Both the position numbers and the translations under genes were made by a program. Of a stretch of 64,000 bases of DNA, positions 45,483 through 52,241 are shown piece after piece. Source of the stretch: Armatimonadota bacterium (GTDB lineage: Bacteria > Armatimonadota > Zipacnadia > Zipacnadales > JABUFB01). Location of the stretch: the NCBI GenBank assembly GCA_013314775.1, contig JABUFB010000008.1, positions 496,001-560,000 on the forward strand. Reading direction: 5' to 3'. Below the pieces are notes generated by a model. The model did no database searches. It was given only the letters and a program-made list of their open reading frames with translations, and was not told where the DNA came from. Positions within the stretch are counted from its first letter, which is position 1. Every line of letters starts with the position of its first letter.

Positions 45483-45507
45483 GCGGGGAAGCACGAAGCT
45501 TCCCCGC
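45483..45507 (+). terminator. 10-bp hairpin just after micro-protein copy 2
   Basis: GCGGGGAAGC (45483-45492) pairs with GCTTCCCCGC (45498-45507), loop ACGAA. It starts two bases after the stop codon of copy 2. No T run follows, so it may stabilise the transcript end instead of terminating alone. Confidence 0.6.
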
Positions 45508-47061: not shown

Positions 47062-47089
47062 TGCCGGTGCACGCCGGCCTGCACCGGCA
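47062..47089. promoter_or_regulatory. 10-bp hairpin upstream of the MttB-like gene
   Basis: TGCCGGTGCA (47062-47071) pairs perfectly with TGCACCGGCA (47080-47089) around an 8-base loop. It lies between the aminotransferase stop and the MttB-like ribosome site on the minus strand, with no T run. It could attenuate read-through or be an operator. Confidence 0.45.
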
Positions 47090-50186: not shown

Positions 50187-50957
50187 TCACGCAATCCCCA
50201 GTATCCAGCCCTCAAGACTCGCGATCTTCCGCTCCTCATCAGTCAGCGGCGGATCGAGGTACCTGCCCATGAACCCACGCTGGCACGTCTCCTTCAGCCA
50301 CCGCGCGATGGAGTAGGCGTCCTGCTCGTCCGTGCTGCGCTTCTCCCTGGGGTAGCGGTTCCGCAGGATCGACGGGTACATTTCGGCGATCACCGACTTT
50401 CCCTCCGGGACCCCCCACCCGTCGAAGGGCCAGAAGTGCAGCCGATCCCCTGCTGCCACGCGCATGCGCCGGAGCCAGGGAATGCCCGCGTGCGTCGACT
50501 TGGCGACTTGCCCCTGCACATCGAACCGGAAAACAGACTTGGCCGAGCTCGTCCACTTCTCGCACAGACGCAGCTCATTGCTGGGTCCCGTTCGCGGCGG
50601 ATGGTTGCGGCGGACGTGATCAACGTACATGTGTGGTTCGTCCGTAGGCCAGTTCTCCACGAAGTCGTCCAGGAAATGTCCCCAACTGCTCAGCTTGTAG
50701 CGCCTGAGGTAGCTCACCGGGAAGCCGAAGCCGTGATCCAGTCCCGCGATGAATGATTCGCCGCTCAATGCGAGATCAGTCAGCCAATCGGCGATCTCCT
50801 GCCGCGACCAGTTTCGGCGCTGGTCCGCCGATCTGAAGGGCGCGAAGACCTTCTCGGGCAGGCCGTCCGAAGCGCAATACACCTGCAGGGTTCTGAGGCG
50901 CGATGTCGGCGCTCTTGCCCCGCTGTAATCAATTCCCACATATCGGCTGAACCTCAT
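50187..50957 (-). CDS. RNase-H-fold (DUF429-like) hypothetical protein
   Basis: 256 residues; GGAG upstream of ATG. N-terminal RYVGIDYSGAR resembles the first strand of DUF429/RNase-H-like predicted nucleases; a later acidic motif (VIAEMYPSILRNRYP and STDEQDAYSIARWL) gives the expected D/E set. I do not recognise it more exactly. No signal peptide. It sits between the sulfatase (100 bases downstream) and the palindrome/secreted-hypothetical region upstream, and may form its own transcript. Function unknown. Confidence 0.6.
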   Translation of the reverse strand: MRFSRYVGIDYSGARAPTSRLRTLQVYCASDGLPEKVFAPFRSADQRRNWSRQEIADWLTDLALSGESFIAGLDHGFGFPVSYLRRYKLSSWGHFLDDFVENWPTDEPHMYVDHVRRNHPPRTGPSNELRLCEKWTSSAKSVFRFDVQGQVAKSTHAGIPWLRRMRVAAGDRLHFWPFDGWGVPEGKSVIAEMYPSILRNRYPREKRSTDEQDAYSIARWLKETCQRGFMGRYLDPPLTDEERKIASLEGWILGIA

Positions 50958-51075
50958 GCGTGACTCTCCGAGCAGTCTGATTCATAGCGGGCGCCTGCGG
51001 CTAGGCCGGCTCTACGCGCGTAATCTTGTGCGCCTGTTTCTCTGTCGCTGCTGTCAGGACCTCGCAGGCCTGGAA

Positions 51076-51112
51076 ACCATTGTGGCAACTGGAGGCCAGT
51101 TGCCACAATGGT
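51076..51112. promoter_or_regulatory. 17-bp perfect inverted repeat with 3-base spacer
   Basis: ACCATTGTGGCAACTGG (51076-51092) and its exact complement (51096-51112), spacer AGG. It lies in the 190-base gap between the stop of the secreted hypothetical gene (51147) and the start of the DUF429-like gene (50957), both on the minus strand. No T run follows, so it may be an operator or a Rho-assisted hairpin. It is much longer than other repeats in the window. Confidence 0.7.
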
Positions 51113-51146: not shown

Positions 51147-52178
51147 TCAGTAGCGCCATTCCCAACTATTCCCGGCGATGTTGTTGCTGATGATCGTGCT
51201 CGTATTTGCACTCATCTTCAGCACGTTACTCATCACCTGGAAGCTCTGCCGTTGGGCTTCGAGCAGCGCCTGCTGCTTCATCAGGTCTTCCATTCGCGTT
51301 GCGCTGTCGTTTGCCGTGTCGGCTGGGGCCTCGGCCTGTTCGTCCTGAGCAGGCTCCTGGGGCGCAGAGAGCTTGAACTGCTCAGCCCACGAGGCTCGCA
51401 ACTGCGTCTTCTGCTCTTCGTCCAGAGTCGGCCACACAACTCGGAGCGCAGCCCATTGGATAGGCAGCTTGGACGCTTCGGCCTGCTCCTCGGGTGCGAG
51501 CGCAGGCCACTGAGCAGCCAGGTCTGCGGCAAACTCATCCCTCATCTCCGGAGTCGCGGCGAGCCCTTCTGTGCCGGTTGCCTCAGCGACCATGAACACG
51601 ACCATCTCCACCAGGGCATCGGTCACCTGGCGGGTCAGCGGCGGGTTGCCCTGCGCGAGAGGAACGTGGGCCGCGTCGTAGATGCCGAGGAGCCATTGAT
51701 TACCGGGGTCCTGGGGCGCTGCCCGGGCGCCGCTAAGTAACTCATGGCTCAACGATTCACGCAGCAGCTTCCGGTCTGCTTCTGAAAGCGTCGGCAACTG
51801 CTCCATAAGCGACACGATATCACCGGTACTCGTGATCGTTTCCGCATCTTTGTCCTGCCAGGCCGCAAGTAGGGATTGCCGGACTTCCAGCCGCTGCTGC
51901 TGGGTCAGCGTAGCATCCAGCGTCCATTCCAGGAAGTTCCCGAAATGCGAGACCATGACATCCGTCAAGGGCGGCTCCCCCTCGGCCAGTACCACCGGCG
52001 GCGCAACCGGCCTTTCAGGCTCCGGCGCGTTCTCGGTAGCCGCAACGACGGCGCCCTCGGCAGACGCAGCCTCTGGCGGGACCTGTTCATCAGCGAGCGA
52101 GAGACTTGGCGACACGAGCACGAGCAAGAGCGCTACCAGAGTCGACCCTGAGGAATGTCTAAAGAGTGTGGTTACCAT
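51147..52178 (-). CDS. secreted helical hypothetical protein
   Basis: 343 residues; ATG 52178 has GGAGGG eight bases upstream; an earlier ATG (52193) overlaps that site. Signal peptide (LVALLLVLVSPSLSLA). After an Ala/Pro/Glu-rich spacer, four helical segments repeat the theme L...Q/D..R..L/V..S/W (LTQQQRLEVRQSLLAAW, LSEADRKLLRESLSHEL, LAPEEQAEASKLPIQW, LDEEQKTQLRASWAEQF). The end ANTSTIISNNIAGNSWEWRY is polar. No family recognised. It has its own sigma70-like promoter, and a palindrome upstream; probably a separately expressed periplasmic or surface protein. Confidence 0.7.
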   Translation of the reverse strand: MVTTLFRHSSGSTLVALLLVLVSPSLSLADEQVPPEAASAEGAVVAATENAPEPERPVAPPVVLAEGEPPLTDVMVSHFGNFLEWTLDATLTQQQRLEVRQSLLAAWQDKDAETITSTGDIVSLMEQLPTLSEADRKLLRESLSHELLSGARAAPQDPGNQWLLGIYDAAHVPLAQGNPPLTRQVTDALVEMVVFMVAEATGTEGLAATPEMRDEFAADLAAQWPALAPEEQAEASKLPIQWAALRVVWPTLDEEQKTQLRASWAEQFKLSAPQEPAQDEQAEAPADTANDSATRMEDLMKQQALLEAQRQSFQVMSNVLKMSANTSTIISNNIAGNSWEWRY

Positions 52179-52213
52179 GGCCAATCCCTCCATCTCGACT
52201 TCTATCTAAACTG

Positions 52214-52241
52214 ATTATATATCGTTTATCAGCCGCGTCAA
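52214..52241 (-). promoter_or_regulatory. sigma70-type promoter (-35/-10) of the secreted hypothetical gene
   Basis: On the minus strand: TTGACG (52241-52236), spacer of 16 bases, TATAAT (52219-52214). Nearly consensus and placed in the only AT-rich stretch nearby; the predicted start is about 52207, leaving a leader near 29 bases before the ATG at 52178. Confidence 0.75.

Follow-up and report, generated by a model that had tools for sequence, protein, structure and literature searches.

A perfect 17-bp palindrome in an Armatimonadota genome is probably a stem-loop at the 3' end of the upstream gene's mRNA

Results

A perfect palindrome lies between two minus-strand genes

The DNA analysed here is a 64-kb stretch of the genome of an Armatimonadota bacterium, referred to below as the window. 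Two genes on its minus strand, one encoding a protein of 348 aa and the other a protein of 256 aa, are separated by a perfect palindrome. The features of the locus, in the order in which they are met along the minus strand, are as follows.

52214–52241, minus strand: sigma-70-like promoter match (TTGACG, 16 nt, TATAAT) before the 348-aa gene; a consensus match only
51147–52193, minus strand: upstream gene, 348 aa, with a signal-peptide-like N terminus by eye
51076–51112, minus strand: perfect 17-bp stem with a 3-nt loop, probably the hairpin at the 3' end of the 348-aa gene's mRNA; kept in G001, a genome of the same genus
51066–51075, minus strand: tail after the stem, TTCCAGGCCT, with no U-tract; two T among the first eight bases
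50187–50957, minus strand: downstream gene, 256 aa, conserved protein with no Pfam family

The inverted-repeat arms of the palindrome (51076–51092 and 51096–51112) are 17 nt each and 100% complementary, with a spacer of 3 nt, exactly as an earlier note on this DNA had described them, and 9 of the 17 pairs of the stem are G-C. The stop codon of the 348-aa ORF ends at 51147, which leaves a gap of 34 bases to the palindrome, and 118 bases separate the palindrome from the start of the downstream ORF at 50957; the distances to both neighbouring genes had also been given correctly. Among the 14 inverted-repeat pairs listed in the 64-kb window it is the longest perfect one, and within that list its earlier description as the longest and most perfect repeat of the window holds. 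The next-longest perfect inverted repeat, at 349–399, has 15-nt arms and a 21-nt spacer. This second repeat is followed on the plus strand by TTTGTC and is terminator-like, with a short T run.

The upstream 348-aa protein had no Pfam or NCBIfam match that reached a cut-off. For the downstream 256-aa protein no Pfam family was found up to E = 10, so that the label 'DUF429-like', under which the gene had been introduced, is unsupported by Pfam; its one NCBIfam match scored 27.7 bits, far under the 596-bit cut-off of that family, and neither a PHROG match nor a solved structure was found. Relatives of the 256-aa protein with 46–48% identity are present on four IMG/VR contigs. The scan for sigma-70-like promoters gave one match, against 1.4 expected in shuffles, and no Rfam family was found in the window at gathering thresholds.

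A hairpin such as this one is expected by chance about 1e-4 times per 64 kb and 0.009 times per genome, on an estimate that takes account of composition only. The minus-strand RNA of the 111-nt surroundings folds with −49.2 kcal/mol (z = −5.4), with none of 200 shuffles as good, and in the folded gene-strand RNA the palindrome is predicted to be one stem of 17 pairs.

The hairpin is conserved behind the upstream gene

In G001 the hairpin is found in the same place, with 33 of the 34 arm bases identical, a changed loop and a stem that still has 17 pairs. By comparison, identity between G001 and the window is 59/90 in the flanks of the hairpin (45 bases on each side), about 56% in the remaining intergenic sequence, and, in the genes on either side, 59% and 65% at third codon positions. 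The contig stretch L023, which agrees with the G001 contig C629 in length (3693 bases) and in hairpin position, also has the window's order of features: a divergent gene comes first, then the 348-aa gene, the hairpin and the 256-aa gene.

A hairpin is kept at this place with a different sequence in G011, where the orthologue of the upstream gene (43% identity) is followed, 27 nt after its stop, by a 13-pair hairpin whose sequence is unrelated; the gene beyond it differs from the window's downstream gene. Close behind this hairpin (L013, about 2420–2435) there is a −10-like TACAAT, before a gene that by eye is aldo-keto-reductase-like. Counting the window's own gene, a hairpin follows the upstream gene in all three of its closest orthologues. 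No consistent hairpin was seen behind eight distant homologues of 23–33% identity (a ninth, L021, was left out of the count): with G-U pairs allowed, a stem of at least 8 pairs was found within 160 bases in four of them and in none of the other four.

In G002, the gene related to the downstream gene (60% identity) stands next to a different upstream neighbour, and its 300 upstream bases contain no stem of at least 8 bp. Since the upstream-gene orthologue in G011 has a hairpin and the downstream-gene relative in G002 does not, the hairpin goes with the upstream gene and not with the downstream gene. Near-identical arms that show no compensatory change are not in themselves proof of an RNA structure.

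Perfect hairpins are concentrated at gene 3' ends across the genome

We sampled 864 kb of the same genome, made up of 40 stretches of 20 kb and the window, and ran a simple gene caller based on hexamers, which gave 615 genes, including those of the window, at 91% coverage. The caller is crude: for both neighbours of the palindrome it sets the start inside the longest ORF; the 3' ends of these two genes match the ORF list. The gene ends considered were those followed by a space of at least 40 bases, and an end was scored as carrying a hairpin if a perfect stem of at least 9 bp with a loop of 3–10 lay within 100 bases past it.

Such stems were present at 29 of 352 gene 3' ends, compared with 1 of 144 divergent 5' regions and a mean of 1.0 in dinucleotide shuffles. 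For perfect stems of at least 11 bp the counts were 15 at gene 3' ends, 0 in divergent 5' regions and 0.0 in shuffles. By a hand count, 23 distinct hairpins stand behind the 29 gene ends, as 6 convergent ones are counted for two genes, and the hairpins lie a median of 28 nt past the stop. Perfect stems of 16–17 bp were seen at two other places: at L064 18093, where two convergent genes stop 33 and 35 nt away, and at L049 8732, 30 nt past a stop. The palindrome, likewise a perfect hairpin soon after a stop, is therefore among the longest members of a genome-wide class of hairpins that is concentrated at gene 3' ends. The window itself holds two more perfect 10-bp hairpins of the class, at 45483–45507 and 47062–47089, between convergent and tandem genes.

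Three members of the class besides the window's (L064, L046 and L053) were compared in the relatives, the L049 hairpin being left out because its comparison led to a multi-copy protein family, for which no orthologous place stood out. The L064 hairpin has 27 of 34 arm bases in G001, with the stem kept and at least two paired changes by eye. For the L046 hairpin the stem is kept in all three family relatives, with 24/24 arm bases in G001, 22/24 in G002 and 20/24 in G003, and the loop is CUUCGG in G002 and G003. The L053 hairpin has 24/24 arm bases in G001 and was not seen in G002 or G003. Since L046 and L053 are identical throughout their arms in G001, strong arm identity within the genus is not a peculiarity of the window's hairpin.

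The stem is followed by neither a U-tract nor a Rho-site signature

On the gene strand, the first eight bases past the stem are TTCCAGGC, of which two are T, so that the absence of a T run, remarked on earlier, is true of the strand that matters here. The hairpin shares with an intrinsic (Rho-independent) terminator a stable stem-loop in an intergenic position, some tens of bases past the stop and close to where a transcription unit ends, but it differs in its stem of 17 bp with 9/17 G-C pairs and in having TTCCAGGC where a U-tract would directly follow the stem. Because the canonical U-tract is absent we do not class it as a canonical intrinsic terminator, and it is not among the predictions of a terminator scan of the window.

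Across the class, 7 of 29 tails have at least 5 T in their first eight bases, whereas the same script applied to 200 kb of E. coli K-12 gave 14 of 33. The mean T content of the class tails is 0.32, against 0.175 in 3' regions of the genome generally; the corresponding figures for the 200 kb of E. coli K-12 are 0.50 and 0.283. The tails of this genome are thus enriched in T, but more weakly than those of E. coli.

Rho is encoded by the genome. A C-rich, G-poor Rho-site signature was not found after the palindrome, where the 118 bases contain 37 C and 37 G, and the composition after the hairpins of the class is 0.279 C and 0.297 G.

Discussion

The palindrome as a probable mRNA 3'-end stem-loop

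We consider it very probable that the mRNA of the upstream 348-aa gene carries at its 3' end a stem-loop formed by the palindrome. Of the three roles originally offered for it, that of a structural hairpin is supported because its position class, its conservation and the hairpin of different sequence behind the G011 orthologue all fit an RNA 3'-end stem-loop, while for an operator or a recombination site no evidence was found. In the minus-strand transcript the 17-bp stem would fold 34 nt past the stop codon of the 348-aa gene, and it could then act in one of two ways. It might help RNA polymerase to stop, as a U-poor terminator-like hairpin that is perhaps aided by Nus factors. Alternatively, the stem might block 3'-to-5' exonucleases that trim a transcript ended farther on by Rho, in which case it would set a stable 3' end and separate the 348-aa gene from the next gene. 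Both terminator-like and end-protecting action fit, and either may apply.

Hairpin terminators without a U-tract go by the name 'I-shaped'. In an excerpt of PMC8355165, which describes terminators with a hairpin after the stop and no poly-U, as here, poly-U is argued to be non-essential after terminator hairpins, and 98% of correctly identified sites are within 80 bases of the stop; the palindrome is a single long stem, above the 8-bp average which that paper reports for single hairpins. PMC8355165 nowhere uses the word Armatimonadetes, and a literature search found nothing that pairs Armatimonadetes with transcription terminators. According to an excerpt of PMC13289151, a 3'-stabilising hairpin remains in E. 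coli after Rho-dependent termination and exonuclease trimming. The palindrome resembles the hairpin of that account in having no strong U-tract and in lying in a genome that encodes Rho, but differs from it in that no C-rich, G-poor stretch follows.

The hairpin is ordinary in kind and unusual only in its length and its missing U run. Striking and unique though it is, the palindrome has many counterparts among the 3'-end hairpins of this Armatimonadota genome, and as a single element it matters little. The tails of these hairpins have a lower U content than E. coli tails when both are measured alike, which makes the phylum a sensible choice for studying how transcript ends arise where strong U-tracts are lacking.

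Alternative readings of the palindrome

A dimeric or double-dimer DNA-binding protein could instead use the palindrome as an operator and control the downstream 256-aa gene. The near-identity of the arms in G001, set against the low identity of the other intergenic sequence, suggests a constraint on sequence besides pairing, and the 118-nt distance to the downstream start would suit such a site. However, the arm has no other copy in the genome at up to 2 mismatches, and the palindrome is not kept upstream of the downstream gene in relatives with other neighbours: the G002 relative has no stem of at least 8 bp in its 300 upstream bases, and in G011 a hairpin stands behind the upstream-gene orthologue where that downstream neighbour is missing. 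Stems of at least 9 bp are also nearly absent from the divergent, promoter-bearing regions (1/144), and equal arm identity is seen at the 3' hairpins of L046 and L053. We regard an operator as improbable.

It is hardly likely, either, that the palindrome serves the downstream gene as a regulatory hairpin in its 5' leader, such as a processing site or a site of autoregulation by the gene's product. It does precede that gene on the same strand and is retained in both members of the genus, as would be expected of a leader element, but among nine upstream stretches examined only those of the window and G001 have it. One of the nine, from a viral contig, has an 8-bp GC repeat. The letter-for-letter conservation of the arms leaves a slim chance that the hairpin is a specific site of binding or cleavage, for instance for the downstream-gene product, which would then control its own leader.

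That the palindrome is a repetitive or mobile element (REP, MITE or recombination site) is very improbable. REP elements, too, are GC-rich 3' hairpins without a U-tract, as an excerpt of PMC13289151 describes, but the window palindrome is a single copy. The genome-wide search for the arm that the earlier note had called for, with up to 2 mismatches allowed, found it at a single locus of this genome (6.12 Mb, 98.5% complete), and the palindrome is therefore not a mobile or REP-type repeat. A 22-base core pattern occurred in 2 of the 291 genomes searched in the phylum, this one (G000) and G001, in both cases at the palindrome locus, and the exact 26-base pattern matched one stretch in genome_contigs (L023, on a contig of an Armatimonadetes MAG) and none in viral_contigs. 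A multi-copy element is thereby refuted; uniqueness, which had been put forward as counting against a function, does not do so, because the other hairpins of the class likewise have their own sequences. The probability of a chance palindrome is close to nil, as nothing favours it except that intergenic sequences are many, only some 1e-4 are expected per window, and it is refuted by the conservation of the hairpin in a second species, G001, despite diverged flanks.

Repeated sequences of other kinds were met in the sample. Within L049 8000–9500, two stretches of about 170 bases match 46–47 places in each of three relatives and belong to a large multi-copy sequence family. Contigs C2 and C7 of the same genome begin with a shared hairpin and flank (L048 95–120 and L054 95–120), so that a repeat lies at the ends of these two contigs.
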